Source: an uncultured beta proteobacterium
GTDB lineage: Bacteria; Pseudomonadota; Gammaproteobacteria; Burkholderiales; Burkholderiaceae_C
Assembly (NCBI GenBank): GCA_903927295.1
Contig: CAIYMN010000097.1
Span: 1 to 34,242, forward strand
Direction of reading: 5' to 3'
Length of the DNA: 34,242 nt
Below, piece after piece: positions 14,005 to 20,778 of this stretch. The notes beneath the pieces are model-generated. The model had not been told where the DNA came from. It did no database searches and saw only the letters and a list, made by a program, of their open reading frames with translations. The position numbers were made by a program, and so were the translations under genes. Within the stretch, counting starts at the first letter, position 1. Each line of letters opens with the position of its first letter.

Positions 14005-14652
14005 TCAGGACCTCCGGTCAGTGGCAGTTATGGCGGCAAAAGGCCGCAAGAATTCTTCGCTGTGCCGGGCAGGTGCCTCCAGCCAGTCGTGATAGCGTGC
14101 CGTCGGCAGAATCACCACCATCCGCTTTTCGTCGGTCGGCTTGTGGAACATGCGCATCAGGGGATGCTCATCGGCATTCACTGTCAGCATGGTGTAGCTG
14201 TAAACGATCTCGCGATCGGGCGACTTCCAGACTGACCACAACCCGGCAATGCCAAGTGGCTCCCCGTCAGCACGAACAATCTGGGTGGACACCGATTTGC
14301 CGCTGCGCCAGTCGGGTTCGAACAAGGAGTCTGCAGGGATGATGCAGTGCTGGGCGCGCGTCCAGGCATCCCGAAAGCTCGGTTTCTCCGACACTGTCTC
14401 GCTCCTTGCGTTGAAGGTATGCCGAGCAATCCTCGTGTCCTTTGACCAGTGAGGAACGAGGCCGAACAGGCCCGTCAGCGCCTCGCAGCGCGGTACTGCA
14501 TCGTCACCTGCGTCAGCATGCGGATGACGCCGTATGAATGGTCCCAGGTACCCTGGCCACAGATCCCACTTACCGGGCTCGGCGGGTGGCTCGACGCCAA
14601 AGTAGCGGCGGTACCTGTCCTGCTCTTTGAGGGCTTGGTAGTGACTGCACAT
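14005..14652 (-). CDS. yedK: SOS response-associated peptidase (SRAP; YedK/HMCES-like)
   Basis: A 215-residue SRAP-domain protein. These enzymes bind abasic sites in single-stranded DNA and form a DNA-protein crosslink through Cys2, which is exposed after the initiator Met is removed. Cys2 is present (MCSHY). The FNARSE motif (residues 80-85), Glu112 in the SLFEPDW segment and His170 (MFHKPTDEKRM) fit the other active-site positions. The usual FYEW is changed to FEPDW here, a local variant. No LexA box is visible upstream despite the family name. First gene of a three-gene minus-strand operon; divergent from a small membrane protein. Confidence 0.9.
   Translation of the reverse strand: MCSHYQALKEQDRYRRYFGVEPPAEPGKWDLWPGYLGPFIRRHPHADAGDDAVPRCEALTGLFGLVPHWSKDTRIARHTFNARSETVSEKPSFRDAWTRAQHCIIPADSLFEPDWRSGKSVSTQIVRADGEPLGIAGLWSVWKSPDREIVYSYTMLTVNADEHPLMRMFHKPTDEKRMVVILPTARYHDWLEAPARHSEEFLRPFAAITATDRRS
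14011..14015 (-). promoter_or_regulatory. Shine-Dalgarno GGAGG fixing the TTG start of DUF2889
   Basis: On the minus strand GGAGG is followed by seven bases and then TTG at 14003. It is the best ribosome-binding site near the beginning of this frame and lies immediately upstream of the SRAP stop codon, within the SRAP coding region. Confidence 0.7.
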
Positions 14653-16327: not shown

Positions 16328-17176
16328 ATGAAACCACCAGGCAGATTGCAATCACTCGTTGACGAGGGTCTGATCGATACGGTCGTTCGCCAACTCATGA
16401 GTGGCAAAGAGGCCATGGTCTACGTGGTGCGGTGCGGCGACGAAACACGTTGCGCCAAGATATACAAGGAAGCCACGCAACGCAGTTTTCGACAGGCAGT
16501 GGACTACACTGAAAACCGCAAGGTCAAGAATACGCGGCAAGCCCGTGCCATGGCGAAGGGCACGAAATTTGGACGCCAGGCCCAGGAGGCTGCATGGCAA
16601 AGTGCCGAGGTAGATGCGCTCTACCGTTTGGCCGCTGCCGGCGTGCGGGTACCGCAGCCGTTCAACTTCCATGATGGCGTGCTGCTGATGGAACTGGTAG
16701 TGGATGCGCAGGGCGACGCGGCCCCGCGTCTGAATGATCTTGTCTTCACGTCGGACCAGGCAAGAGCCCACCATGCTACGCTGATTGCCGAGGTGGTCCG
16801 CATGTTGTGCGCGGGCTTGATCCACGGTGATCTGTCCGAGTTCAACATACTGATGGCTGGGGATGGCCCAGTGATCATCGACTTGCCGCAAGCGGTGGAC
16901 GCAGCAGGCAACAACCACGCACAACGGATGTTGTTGCGCGATGTAGCCAATCTGCGTGACTTCTTTGGCAAGTTTGCCCCGGAATTGCTGGGTACGGACT
17001 ATGGACCTGAAATCTGGAGTCTTTACGAGAAGGGTATGCTTTCCACGGACCTGATTCTCAGCGGTCACTTTGATCGAAAGACCGTCGCGGTGGATTTGGG
17101 CAGCGTCCTGCGCGAGATCGACGACGCCCGCTCCGAAGAGGTGCTGCGCCGTCAGCGCATGCTCGCGGCGCCCTGA
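16328..17176 (+). CDS. RIO1-family serine protein kinase-like protein
   Basis: A 282-residue RIO-type atypical protein kinase. A helical/winged N-terminus precedes the flexible P-loop SGKEAMVYVV (25-34), Lys44 in CAKIYK binds ATP phosphates, HGDLSEFNIL (166-175) is the catalytic loop with Asp168 and Asn173, and IIDLPQAVD supplies the metal-binding Asp185 that replaces DFG. All catalytic residues are intact. Bacterial RIO kinases of this length are common in proteobacteria; their targets are largely unknown. It follows the MFS exporter by six bases and has no clear Shine-Dalgarno, so translation may depend on coupling. Confidence 0.88.
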   Translation: MKPPGRLQSLVDEGLIDTVVRQLMSGKEAMVYVVRCGDETRCAKIYKEATQRSFRQAVDYTENRKVKNTRQARAMAKGTKFGRQAQEAAWQSAEVDALYRLAAAGVRVPQPFNFHDGVLLMELVVDAQGDAAPRLNDLVFTSDQARAHHATLIAEVVRMLCAGLIHGDLSEFNILMAGDGPVIIDLPQAVDAAGNNHAQRMLLRDVANLRDFFGKFAPELLGTDYGPEIWSLYEKGMLSTDLILSGHFDRKTVAVDLGSVLREIDDARSEEVLRRQRMLAAP

Positions 17177-17273
17177 CTGGAAGGCGATCTCAGGAAAATC
17201 GTCGGTACACCAAGCCTCTGCGGTGAAAAGAGTCAGCGGCCGGGGCATCGCCGTGAAAAGCACAGGAGTTGAA

Positions 17274-17293
17274 TACTGTATATACTTACAGTA
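17274..17293 (+). promoter_or_regulatory. LexA box (SOS operator)
   Basis: The 16-bp core CTGT-ATATACTT-ACAG (17276-17291) lies within a 20-bp site that matches the E. coli LexA consensus at 18 of 20 positions by eye. It is one base upstream of the ATG at 17293, and its last base is the A of that codon. A TATACT hexamer at 17281-17286 inside the box can serve as the -10, so LexA binding would cover the promoter. It is the only good LexA box I found in the window. Confidence 0.85.
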
Positions 17294-17517
17294 TGAAGAC
17301 AGAAATTCAATTCCGCTGGCGCATCAAGTGGTCAGGGCATTGGGCAACCACCGGCCACCACTGCACCGAGGAACAAATCCGCAAAGAGCACCCCGAAGCA
17401 GTGTGTATCGAAGATTCGCGCCGAGAGCTCAGTGTTGCGGAGACTTTCGATGAACGCAAGAATGTCATGTTCCCTGTGCACTCATTGCACCGGCAATCGG
17501 CAGGGGACAGCACGTGA
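17293..17517 (+). CDS. SOS-regulated small protein of unknown function
   Basis: A 74-residue hydrophilic protein starting MKTEIQFRWRIKWSGHW and containing TTGHHCTEEQIRKEHPEA, which I believe recurs in short hypothetical proteins of Comamonadaceae (memory only). It has no signal peptide or membrane segment, and one HHC plus another Cys that could bind metal. The start ATG overlaps the LexA box, and with TATACT seven bases upstream as the -10 element the transcript would begin at the AUG itself, i.e. leaderless. A TTG at 17269 is the alternative start. Its TGA overlaps the GTG of the next small frame (GTGA). Function unknown; DNA-damage induction is inferred from the operator. Confidence 0.7.
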   Translation: MKTEIQFRWRIKWSGHWATTGHHCTEEQIRKEHPEAVCIEDSRRELSVAETFDERKNVMFPVHSLHRQSAGDST

Positions 17518-17627
17518 GCGCTGTCGCGAAAGCACGGGCTTCGATGCCTTGCACTGCCGCGCAATGGTGGCGCATCATGAAACCGGCACTTGGCAAGTGC
17601 GCTCTGCTGGTCTGGCGCTGGCTATGA
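17514..17627 (+). CDS. Tiny Trp-rich cationic peptide, coupled to the SOS gene
   Basis: A 37-codon frame beginning with GTG that overlaps the preceding stop as GTGA and has AGGGGA eight bases upstream. The peptide is basic and tryptophan-rich at its end (AAQWWRIMKPALGKC, then ALLVWRWL) and could form a short membrane-associating helix. Small SOS-induced membrane peptides exist (for example TisB toxin of E. coli), but there is no sequence similarity that I can claim. A 13-codon frame overlaps its stop as ATGA (17624-17665) and may be a chance continuation. It could also be a remnant of a longer membrane protein. Confidence 0.45.
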   Translation: MSAVAKARASMPCTAAQWWRIMKPALGKCALLVWRWL

Positions 17628-17693
17628 GCGGCCCTTGCGTCCCTGGCCGACGCACAGCGGCCTGAAAATGACCTGCGTGCGCAAACGAGGTGG

Positions 17694-17714
17694 CAGTTTG
17701 CAGTTTGCAGTTTG
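17694..17714. repeat. Three tandem copies of CAGTTTG
   Basis: Three perfect copies of the 7-bp unit CAGTTTG, followed by a partial CA, lie between the SOS cassette and the 3' end of the convergent membrane-protein gene. The copies are exact, so slippage could change their number. Confidence 0.9.
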
Positions 17715-17721
17715 CACGACT

Positions 17722-18405
17722 TCACATGTCTCTGCTGCCGCCTTTCGGTGTTTTCGGGCGGGGAACCAGGCGGTAGTAGTACTCATGCCAGTGCGGTGGA
17801 GGCAGCGGGGCCATGCGACTACCAATGTCCTCCTGTTCCAGCCAGTCAATGTCTCGCATGACATCGCGATCCACAAGCCGCAGTTCGCGACCCAAGCTTG
17901 TGATGGTGTCACGATAAGCTGCTACGTTGGTGCTTCTTTTTAACATGCGCAGAGCATGCTGGTCAGCATCCTTTGTGTTGTGCAGTGGTGATAATTGGGC
18001 GGCGATATCCGCAACCACGCCCCAAGAGTATTGCTCATGTGCCACGGTGGCTATCGCTATTGCCACAGCGGCACCGAGGGTACCTGCTGCGATAAGGAGA
18101 ATGCCGGTTAACAATACGTCGGCGGGCGTATTCCCGCGAAGGCTGGCGCCCTGAGTCAGAAAGCAGAGCAGCATTCCTGCCAAAAAAGCGACGGCCCCCC
18201 TGAACTTGAACGAACGCAGCAGCGGTGAAATTCTGGTCACCCAGTGCGCCTCGCAACGCTTTTGCAGGGTCGCAACCTCTTGTTCCGAGCGTTTGCTCCA
18301 AAAGTCAGGGGAAGGCTTGACGAAAAACGCTTGCCAGATGGCGCTTAGTGATGGCGATGCGAGGGACAGCGAGTCGGTGGACTTGGTTGCGTTAGTTTTG
18401 TTCAT
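17722..18405 (-). CDS. Unknown two-helix membrane protein
   Basis: A 227-residue protein starting MNKTNATKSTDS. Two adjacent hydrophobic helices (about residues 71-89 and 97-122, the second Ala/Ile-rich) divide a charged N-terminal cytosolic part from a C-terminal charged domain rich in Arg/Asp (LRLVDRDVMRDIDWLEQE), ending with a proline- and Tyr-rich tail (HWHEYYYRL). I do not recognise a family. The ATG overlaps the stop of the small upstream frame as ATGA, which fixes the start and suggests translational coupling. It converges on the LexA-controlled cassette. Confidence 0.6.
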   Translation of the reverse strand: MNKTNATKSTDSLSLASPSLSAIWQAFFVKPSPDFWSKRSEQEVATLQKRCEAHWVTRISPLLRSFKFRGAVAFLAGMLLCFLTQGASLRGNTPADVLLTGILLIAAGTLGAAVAIAIATVAHEQYSWGVVADIAAQLSPLHNTKDADQHALRMLKRSTNVAAYRDTITSLGRELRLVDRDVMRDIDWLEQEDIGSRMAPLPPPHWHEYYYRLVPRPKTPKGGSRDM

Positions 18406-18611
18406 GTGCAATTCGTGTTTTGGTGCTTCCAATGAAAACGTCCATTGACTGAGGCATGCGCCTTCACCAATCTGTTTGTTGCTGCACAGGTCAAGGTGAT
18501 TGCTTCATCGACTGAAACCACACGACTGTTCGGATAGAACTGTTGCACCAAAGAAAGAGCCCGGTGGAGTAGGTCCTGTAGCCCATTTAACCCATGTTCT
18601 GACCCATGCAT
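18402..18611 (-). CDS. Small hypothetical protein coupled to the membrane-protein gene
   Basis: A 69-residue frame beginning MHGSEHGLNGLQDLLHRAL and containing LVQQFYPNSRVVSVDEAI, apparently helical and soluble, with no recognised family. A GTG at 18644 is an alternative start. The reason to consider it real is the 4-bp ATGA overlap with the downstream membrane-protein start plus its position just downstream of the tRNA-His terminator, where a new transcript would begin. No strong Shine-Dalgarno is seen. Confidence 0.45.
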   Translation of the reverse strand: MHGSEHGLNGLQDLLHRALSLVQQFYPNSRVVSVDEAITLTCAATNRLVKAHASVNGRFHWKHQNTNCT

Positions 18612-18727
18612 TGTGATGTGACGCCGTGGACGGCATAAACACACGAATAGACATCCATAGATTCAATAACTCTAATGGAGTACAAGTTTAGCTGTGCTTC
18701 TCACTCGAGAAAACAGGAACTTGAACG

Positions 18728-18753
18728 AAAAAAAGACCCGGATGGGTCTTTTT
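18728..18753 (-). terminator. Intrinsic terminator after tRNA-His
   Basis: A perfect 10-bp stem (AAAAAGACCC / GGGTCTTTTT) with a 4-base loop, followed on the minus strand by a run of T. It lies 15 bp downstream of tRNA-His. Because the stem ends in A/T runs on both sides it could also work on the plus strand. Confidence 0.85.
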
Positions 18754-18767
18754 CAGAGGGGATTACT

Positions 18768-18844
18768 TGGGGTGGCTGATGGGGCTCGAACCCACGACAA
18801 CAGGAATCACAATCCTGGACTCTACCAACTGAGCTACAGCCACC
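18768..18844 (-). tRNA. tRNA-His (anticodon GTG)
   Basis: A 77-nt cloverleaf on the minus strand beginning with the extra G-1 that is diagnostic of tRNA-His and pairs with C73; encoded CCA end. The anticodon loop reads ATTGTGATT (GTG, reads CAC/CAU), and the T-loop is GGTTCGAGCCC. Only 11 bp separate it from the ppiD stop, so it is probably processed from the ppiD transcript. Confidence 0.97.
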
Positions 18845-18855
18845 GCGTGATCAGA

Positions 18856-20778
18856 TTATAGGGGCTGGCTTCCCGCGCGCGCCGGACGTGGGGCCATGAT
18901 TTCAGCCTTGAATCGCTCTTTGAGCAAGCCGTAGTAGGCCTGCGACTCAGCCGCGGTCCACCATTGGGCGTACTGAGCACGATCCTGCTTGGCCGCAACC
19001 TCGGTTGGTACCGGGCGCGCGACCAGCTGATTGATCTTGACCACGGCATAGCCTTGTGAGCCCATGCTGACGCCGACAAAGACAGGCAATTTGGAAGTGT
19101 CGGCACGCAGCACGGCGTTCAGAATTTGCGGCGGCGTGTTCTGCGCCTGGTCGCGCGAGAGCGTCTGCGCTGCCGGCATCACCGCGCTGCCCGGCGCTGC
19201 CTTCCAGGCGGCAAGTTTGGCAGCGCCGTCCTGCGCTGCCAGTTCAGCAGCACGCGCGGCCACCAGGCGTTCGCGCACATTGGCGCGCACGTCGGCCAGC
19301 ACCAGCGTTCTGGCAGCCTGGTATTGCGTGATGCGCCCGGCAGTCAACTGGTTGGGAGCGGTTTCAATCGCTTCAGTATTGCGCTTTTTTTCAATCGCAT
19401 CCGGGCCAAAGATCGCCGCCAGAAATTTGGCGTTGGCCAGAGGACCGGTGACACCCGCAGCAGCATTGCGCGACAGCTTCTCTGCGCTCCTGACCTCAAG
19501 TTTGAGCTTGTCAGCGACCGGCTTCAAGCTATCCGACTGTTCATAGACACCGTTCGTAAAGGCTTCAGCCGTCTCGGCAAACTTGCGCTGCGCCTGCTGC
19601 GTCTTCAAGTCCGCCTCGATGCTGGCACGCAGTTCTTCAAAGCTGCGCTGCTTGGGCGCCTTGATGTCGGTGAGTTTGATGATGTGGTAACCAAAGTCAG
19701 ACTCCACCAACTCGCTGATGTCACCCTTCTTCATGGCAAAGGCAGCGTCTTCGAACGGCTTGACCATCGCGCCACGTGCAAAGAAGTCAAGATCGCCACC
19801 CTTGGTGGCAGAACCCGTATCCTGCGAGTTCTTCTTTGCCAGTTCAGCAAAACTGTCAGGTGCCTTGCGCAACGCCGCGAGCAGTTCCTGTGCGCGCGAC
19901 CTGGCCTTCTCGCGCTCGGCTGCGGGGGCGTCCTTGGCCGCGTTGATCAGGATGTGGCTGGCACGCCGCTCCTCATTGCCGCTGAGTCGTGCCGCGTTTT
20001 GATCGTAATAAGACTTGAGATCAGCGTCACTGAGCGTAATGCTCTTCTTGACCGACTCCAGATCAAGCACAACGTACTCAATGCTGGCCTGCTCAGGCGC
20101 CTTAAACAGAGCCTGATTGGCTTTGTAAAACGTCTCCAGTTCAGCCTCGGTCGGATTCACGCGGGAAGCGAACTCTTTGCTGAAGAAGTTGGCGATCTGG
20201 ACTTCACGCCTTTCAAAGAATGCATTCAAGGCGACGTCGGCAACGGCTACCGCGGCAAAGCCGGTTTGCGTCAGCCCGCTTTCCACCTGACGCACCGACA
20301 GGTCGCGGCGCACACGGGCTTCAAATCCTTCGGGTGTCAAGCCCTGGCTGGCGGCCATCTGCCGATAGCGCTCCATGTCGAGTTTGCCGTCGGGGCGACG
20401 CAGTGACGCAATGCCCGGGTCTTCCTGCAGGTCACGCGCCAGTCGTGCGTCACTGGTGGTAAGTTTGAACTGGTCGGCGGCCTGCGCCATCACGCGCTCA
20501 CGCACCAGCCGCTCCAGGGTCGAATAGCGCGCCTCGGGCGAGTCCAGCAACTTGGCGTCCAGGTTGGGCATCTGCGCCCGCAAGCGATCAGCCTCCGATT
20601 TGTGTGCCGCATCCCATTCACCCTGTGTGATGTCCTGGCCACCAACTCGTGCCACGGCATCGCCTTTTTCGCGCATGCGGTTGTAGCCATCAATGCCAAA
20701 CAGCACAAAGGACGGGATGATGAGCAAAAACATCAGGCCCATCATGATCTTCGTGTGCTTGCGGACAAAATCAAACAT
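18856..20778 (-). CDS. ppiD: Periplasmic folding chaperone PpiD (SurA N-terminal/parvulin)
   Basis: A 640-residue inner-membrane-anchored chaperone that helps newly exported proteins fold at the Sec translocon. A single N-terminal membrane helix (about residues 12-30) is followed by a SurA_N chaperone domain (about 35-180), a coiled region and one parvulin domain (about 265-370) with RASHILI, the SFAELAKKNSQD segment, GGDLDFFARGAMVKPFEDAAF and FGYHIIKL. The C-terminal half folds back as chaperone surface. The length fits PpiD. The ATG has GGAG nine bases upstream. It follows tRNA-Val and a terminator and precedes tRNA-His on the same strand. Confidence 0.93.
   Translation of the reverse strand: MFDFVRKHTKIMMGLMFLLIIPSFVLFGIDGYNRMREKGDAVARVGGQDITQGEWDAAHKSEADRLRAQMPNLDAKLLDSPEARYSTLERLVRERVMAQAADQFKLTTSDARLARDLQEDPGIASLRRPDGKLDMERYRQMAASQGLTPEGFEARVRRDLSVRQVESGLTQTGFAAVAVADVALNAFFERREVQIANFFSKEFASRVNPTEAELETFYKANQALFKAPEQASIEYVVLDLESVKKSITLSDADLKSYYDQNAARLSGNEERRASHILINAAKDAPAAEREKARSRAQELLAALRKAPDSFAELAKKNSQDTGSATKGGDLDFFARGAMVKPFEDAAFAMKKGDISELVESDFGYHIIKLTDIKAPKQRSFEELRASIEADLKTQQAQRKFAETAEAFTNGVYEQSDSLKPVADKLKLEVRSAEKLSRNAAAGVTGPLANAKFLAAIFGPDAIEKKRNTEAIETAPNQLTAGRITQYQAARTLVLADVRANVRERLVAARAAELAAQDGAAKLAAWKAAPGSAVMPAAQTLSRDQAQNTPPQILNAVLRADTSKLPVFVGVSMGSQGYAVVKINQLVARPVPTEVAAKQDRAQYAQWWTAAESQAYYGLLKERFKAEIMAPRPARAGSQPL

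Follow-up and report, generated by a model that had tools for sequence, protein, structure and literature searches.

A LexA box on the start codon of a two-gene cassette from a freshwater bacterium: a candidate phage-related SOS locus

TisB/IstR-1 and DinQ of E. coli are described as SOS-controlled small membrane peptides. SidA and DidA of Caulobacter and SulA of E. coli are damage-induced small proteins that halt division. For temperate phages, an excerpt of PMC3121763 describes LexA-controlled antirepressors of the Gifsy and Fels prophages as well as Tum of phage 186, and, for the Gifsy phages, an arrangement of a LexA box, a dinI homologue and a small antirepressor gene.

The cassette analyzed here resembles these systems in combining a LexA box with very small genes. 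It lies in a DNA stretch of 34,242 nt (the window), which is contig C97 of a draft genome (4.1 Mb, 400 contigs, 86.8% complete) of a freshwater bacterium. Gene A (17293..17517, plus strand) has 74 codons and belongs to no recognised family. It is followed by gene B (17514..17627, plus strand), a cationic, Trp-rich frame of 37 codons that starts with GTG and ends in VWRWL. As judged from the sequence comparisons, this is a real, conserved and unnamed SOS-type cassette. Its close relatives mostly keep the box together with A and B, and A has cousins in phages; the locus is therefore probably a small, phage-related cassette of the damage response that escapes ordinary annotation.

Seven close cassettes were compared (the window, L026, L027, L028, L029, L030 and L051), and 22 loci of the wider A family, 18 from one comparison and 4 from another. 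Rows for the same locus were merged (L003, L004, L005 and L006 with L027, L028, L029 and L030, respectively; L007 lies within L051; L107 is L039; L112 is L111). L108 and L109 have identical A genes and upstream bases, yet each was counted within the 22. The candidate relative L010 (G078:C285; 21.9 bits, 33% identity) was judged a chance match and dropped. In one further comparison the row of L034, which began one base out of register, was left out.

The operator and the putative promoter

The sequence TACTGTATATACTTACAGTA at 17274–17293 (plus strand) shows two mismatches (18/20) to the LexA consensus of E. coli, TACTGTATATATATACAGTA. The start codon of A begins on the final base of this box, which was the only match to the E. 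coli consensus in the window at ≤3 mismatches, and no match was found in 100 shuffles. The near-consensus box that the first-pass annotation had placed on the start of the 74-residue gene is thus confirmed. At ≤3 mismatches, a single copy of the window's own 20-mer was detected in the 4.1-Mb draft genome, compared to none for the reversed control. The short core CTGT-N8-ACAG is not enriched in the host genome (29 occurrences vs. 42 for the reversed control). Since it does not rise above its control, the short core alone says little, and it is the long 20-base match that counts. The 16 bases CTGTATATACTTACAG at 17276–17291 conform to CTGT-N8-ACAG, which is the operator motif for the LexA regulon of Betaproteobacteria as quoted in an excerpt of PMC6595937.

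One gene of the host genome encodes a LexA DNA-binding domain, and two tandem CTG-N10-CAG sites, AACTGGTTAAAAATACAGCT and TACTGGATATGAAACCAGTG, are located upstream of this lexA gene. There are 28 other core sites in the host genome, 14 of which were examined together with their flanking loci. Among these 14, three reach scores of 14 to 16 of 20; they are located upstream of imuA, parE and yifB homologues. The site before the ImuA homologue scores 16, and the protein match is above its cut-off. The sites before the ParE and YifB homologues both score 14; the YifB match is above the TIGR00368 cut-off, and the ParE match is below its cut-off, the examined stretch being cut. The box of the cassette outscores all three.

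Five of the seven close cassettes have kept the box, which is absent from L030 and L051. At the latter locus (G074) the box is disrupted and a stop codon lies inside A, and B is still open. At L030, unrelated sequence stands in place of the box upstream of position 133; A starts one codon earlier, and A and B are both open. In the wider A family a box (a site scoring at least 15 of 20 in the 100 to 120 bases before A) was present at 11 of the 22 loci; by the same measure none was found at L030, L051, L032, L033, L034, L036, L037, L039, L108, L109 and L110. Homologues without the box had been named by the first-pass annotation as evidence against its reading, and they do occur, at two of the seven close cassettes and at half of the A-family loci. 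At seven of the 11 boxed loci (window, L026, L027, L028, L029, L038 and L111, the A of L111 being frameshifted) the final base of the box doubles as the first base of the ATG. At the remaining four (the two copies of strain T118, L035 and L040) 11 to 25 bases separate the box from A, and in the T118 copies and in L040 a ribosome-binding site is visible by eye in this interval. With seven fused and four spaced loci, the fused arrangement of operator and start codon is recurrent in the family but not a general feature. Taken together, the box, the presence of sites of the same type at the host lexA gene and the retention in five of seven close cassettes support control of the cassette by LexA, as far as this can be read from sequence, and agree with what had been proposed for it.

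A putative −10 element, TATACT (17281..17286, plus strand), lies within the box and ends 6 bases short of the ATG. The same hexamer is present in L027, and L026, L028 and L029 have TATAAT; all end exactly 6 bases before the ATG, and the spacing is constant in 5/5 boxed close cassettes. Matches to a −35 element were weak (2 to 3 of 6), and a generic promoter scan of 17100–18900 reported no promoter. By eye, no ribosome-binding site of A was seen in the 20 bases of the box, and an AGGAG motif in the window, about 25 bases before the ATG of A, is too far off. Because the −10-like element ends 6 bases before the ATG, the mRNA of the cassette may be leaderless: a transcription start 6 to 7 bases past the element would coincide with the A of the ATG or be adjacent to it.

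Two coupled reading frames

Both genes look like real genes under purifying selection. At the six loci with both frames open (window and L026 to L030), pooled pN/pS was 0.23 for A and 0.37 for B, so A is the more conserved of the two. For B, the other two sense frames gave 1.11 and 1.44 and the antisense frames 0.94, 0.59 and 1.34 at the same number of loci. Restriction to three disjoint pairs gave 0.39 for B (Fisher p 0.00025, calculated from rounded counts). A lack of synonymous bias in the 37-codon frame, which the first-pass annotation had listed as a sign against it, was therefore not observed. The distribution of variable columns over the codon positions of B (17, 12 and 25 of 36) is a weaker signal alone. 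Twelve of the 37 residues of B are invariant in 8/8 aligned sequences (M1, A5, K6, W19, R20, A30, L31 and V33 to L37).

The start of B overlaps the stop of A by four bases, GTGA. This four-base overlap is present at eight of nine B loci, two of the eight carrying just a tail of A, which supports, at the level of sequence, the coupling noted in the first-pass annotation. A putative ribosome-binding site of B, GGGGA (17503..17507, plus strand), was seen by eye within the 3' end of A; at this position the six-locus alignment has GGGAG or GGGGA (by eye). A third frame of 13 codons (17624..17665, plus strand) had been proposed as a further member of the cassette. It exists and overlaps B by ATGA; however, neither its start codon nor its length is conserved over eight B loci, and we rejected it as a gene. 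The overlapping codon is ATG at five loci, ATA at one and GTG at two, and the lengths range from 4 to 40 codons, where the upper value is set by the end of the translated stretch. Rfam at E 0.1 found tRNA and no other RNA family in 16900–18900. In a consensus fold of the sense strand, 5 of 98 pairs were changed on both sides, and the covariation term was unfavourable.

A profile search with A returned 105 relatives, none of which has a precomputed Pfam domain. The predicted structure of A is beta-beta-alpha-beta over residues 2–48, in a model of middling confidence (mean pLDDT 70.8, pTM 0.47), and a structure search with this model gave no credible match. Neither A nor B matched Pfam or NCBIfam at E 1. 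The best E values were 0.13 against PHROGs and 0.031 against PADLOC, the latter to a type I specificity subunit, and no described type II toxin-antitoxin domain was recognised in A or B in these four collections. The family libraries also gave none of the names of SOS division inhibitors (SidA, DidA, SulA) for A or B. When 64 members of the A family were compared to Pfam, the best E value was 0.011, for a single member; against PHROG there were 0 families at E 0.01. As the first-pass annotation had stated, no known SOS gene can be recognised in the cassette by a credible match in the family libraries.

The nine B sequences have a net charge of +2 to +6 and contain 3 to 5 Trp residues. B has an amphipathic stretch, with a hydrophobic moment over 14 residues of up to 0.58. 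The best hydropathy over 15 residues is low (0.43 to 1.20), and the hydrophobic stretch is too short for an ordinary membrane span. Net charge, Trp content and hydrophobic moment are the basis for our guess that B may act on a membrane, and the low hydropathy speaks against it.

Distribution, genomic setting and phage links

A was found in seven of 89 congeneric genomes, in six of them as a close homologue (74 to 100% identity) and in T118 as two paralogues with 44 and 45% identity. Protein P0026 is named Rfer_3056 of Rhodoferax ferrireducens T118 by its source. Eight of 399 family genomes, the own genome included, have A, and among 399 genomes of the order only the own genome has it. B gave eight clear matches (at least 49.8 bits; the next best had 22.5) in seven of the 89 congeneric genomes. 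In this search 36 of the 89 genomes gave a row at E 0.1, and all rows beyond the eight counted (≤22.5 bits) were taken as chance. Among 399 genomes drawn from the family, only the own genome has B, and a B profile run against a database of 5.8 billion proteins returned one protein.

In 6/6 congeneric genomes with a close A, B follows directly (A being broken in G074), and A is thus conserved together with B, a point which the first-pass annotation had left for comparison with related genomes. L026 is an additional cassette carrying both genes. B without the body of A, with only an adjoining A tail, was found at G070:C47 and G072:C225, and therefore neither A nor SOS control may be required for B. 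At these loci (L075, 2870–3027, and L074, 4308–4450, respectively) B stands behind other sequence, and the block that they share begins shortly before the ribosome-binding site of B, as if B were an exchangeable unit.

Similarity of the window to L026 to L029 starts 18 to 21 bases before the ATG and stops at most 7 bases from the end of B. L026, L028 and L029 have about 100 further upstream bases in common among themselves; in these pairs similarity thus extends beyond the box. Twenty-nine related loci, taken from around the RIO kinase gene next to the cassette, resemble the window up to 17213 at most, short of the cassette; the exception is L104, which also matches the tRNA region. Twenty-five of these loci are informative; the stretches of L084, L097, L098 and L102 stop no more than about 210 bases from the gene. 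The genes that flank the cassette in G072 enclose 4.6 kb of other DNA in G070, and the flanks of this site from G000 (1.15 kb, up to where the contig stops) and from G078 gave no match. From the RIO kinase and the G072-site comparisons we concluded that the cassette sits in different variable slots. In the window, the slot between the RIO kinase gene and tRNA-His (18768–18843) also holds a 236-codon frame (17722–18432, minus strand) with membrane segments seen by eye and no convincing family match. In L028 (1425–5821) the cassette is located beside what looks, by eye, like an arsenic-resistance operon.

The first-pass annotation had also raised, by analogy, a phage-related function. This guess gained support for A from a relative in a complete temperate phage genome and from phage integrase or regulator genes as neighbours of other relatives. 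No phage genes were recognised next to A in the window or at the T118 loci. The relative in the phage genome lies at 199–468 of NZ_CP083453.1 (L041) and has the box TACTGTATAAATTAACAGTA. This record is filed as a Comamonas plasmid; with annotated integrase, S24 peptidase, terminase, portal, capsid, tail tube and lysis genes it is a complete temperate phage genome, in which the A homologue is located between the integrase and the lysis genes. A frame at 455–679 of L041 starts inside the end of A, is longer than the annotated gene at 515–679 and could be a coupled second gene, different from B. The A copy of viral contig L039 lacks a box and shares bases with the end of an integrase gene. An integrase is encoded about 2 kb from A in L045, and a gene with Rha and ANT domains about 2 kb from A in L046; both A copies are boxed (L035 and L038, respectively). 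L048 gave an integrase match below the cut-off only, and in L110 and L111, the latter a viral contig, integrases were recognised by eye only. A search of a phage collection matched no record. Both T118 paralogues are boxed and are followed by a gene of 134 to 136 codons and then by a gene for an SRAP (SOS response associated peptidase) protein. An SRAP gene (PF02586, E 4.9e-36) is also present, perhaps by chance, in the window (14005–14652, minus strand), 2.6 kb upstream of the cassette.

Possible functions and comparison with known systems

We favour, with a probability of about 0.4, a self-contained phage-related SOS cassette of about 350 bp, in which a small protein is coupled to a cationic, Trp-rich peptide that may act on the membrane. 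In the undamaged cell LexA would cover the −10 element and keep the operon off. After damage and self-cleavage of LexA, transcription would begin on the A of the ATG or adjacent to it, the leaderless mRNA would be translated, and ribosomes finishing A would restart on B. Our guess is that A could be a small soluble alpha/beta protein, which might dose B via the coupling or act together with it. B might be located at the cytoplasmic membrane, on its inner face, and slow growth or division during DNA repair, working like TisB and DinQ of E. coli.

The main rival is a LexA-controlled antirepressor or prophage switch, in which A or A with B would bind a phage repressor after damage and induce resident prophages, like the small Gifsy and Fels antirepressors, the chromosomal cassette being a phage-derived copy that still acts on prophages. 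The boxed relative between integrase and lysis genes of a complete temperate phage, the boxed A 2 kb from the Rha/ANT-domain gene (L046/L038), the boxed, frameshifted A in the viral contig L111 and the Gifsy arrangement of LexA box, dinI homologue and small antirepressor gene, as given in the excerpt of PMC3121763, all fit this scheme. We nevertheless regard it as unlikely. The 64 A members matched 0 PHROG families at E 0.01, where known antirepressors were covered only via PHROG, the repressor of the Comamonas phage is an S24 peptidase that is expected to cleave itself, and the cassette in the window has no recognisable phage genes next to it. A switch of this kind also leaves the selected, Trp-rich B, found also without A, unexplained. 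The overlap of A with the end of the integrase gene in L039, the integrases near A in L041 and L045 and the size of A would suit a recombination directionality factor or another partner of a phage integrase that was caught in chromosomes, with LexA tying excision to damage. Such a role is improbable, because L039 lacks the box, no integrase gene was identified next to A, either in the window or in the R. ferrireducens copies, which have the 134 to 136-codon gene and the SRAP gene downstream, and the fold predicted by the model of middling confidence is beta-beta-alpha-beta.

A may instead be an accessory protein of DNA repair or damage tolerance, with B as a minor coupled product that has no membrane function. 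The two boxed paralogues ahead of an SRAP gene in R. ferrireducens and the better conservation of A (pN/pS 0.23 vs. 0.37) point in this direction; the 12 invariant residues of B in 8/8 sequences and the open B frames without A at two loci make it distinctly unlikely. We consider it very improbable that the cassette is a decaying selfish element or phage remnant with no present function. The patchy occurrence (close A in 6/89 congeneric genomes), the broken copy L051 and the boxless copy L030 would be expected for a remnant, but purifying selection on both frames, the constant spacing of box, −10 element and ATG and the constant overlap would not.

Extended to all relatives, the phage-related SOS cassette would represent an unnamed family with the operator fused to the start codon and a leaderless mRNA, to which one genus added the coupled membrane peptide B, hardly visible to gene callers and also found alone, as a new kind of compact SOS effector cassette; we put this wider view forward only tentatively. 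Fusion of operator and start codon would amount to a natural leaderless SOS mRNA, and the phage link would indicate a damage-response effector common to hosts and phages. Very small SOS genes are easily missed, as seen from the one protein returned by the B profile compared to B in 7/89 genomes of the genus, and a conserved operator points directly to them.

By description, the cassette can be likened to SidA, DidA and SulA, although no such name came up for A and B in the family libraries. Compared to TisB/IstR-1, Rfam gave tRNA only in 16900–18900. By description, B is like TisB and DinQ in putative LexA control, very small size and proposed membrane action; unlike these peptides it is second in an operon, is coupled to A and has a short hydrophobic stretch rich in Trp. 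The A family shares with the Gifsy and Fels antirepressors and Tum, as described in the excerpt of PMC3121763, a LexA box before small genes in temperate phages, and differs from them in having no PHROG match and in occurring also on chromosomes, both as a stand-alone gene and together with B.
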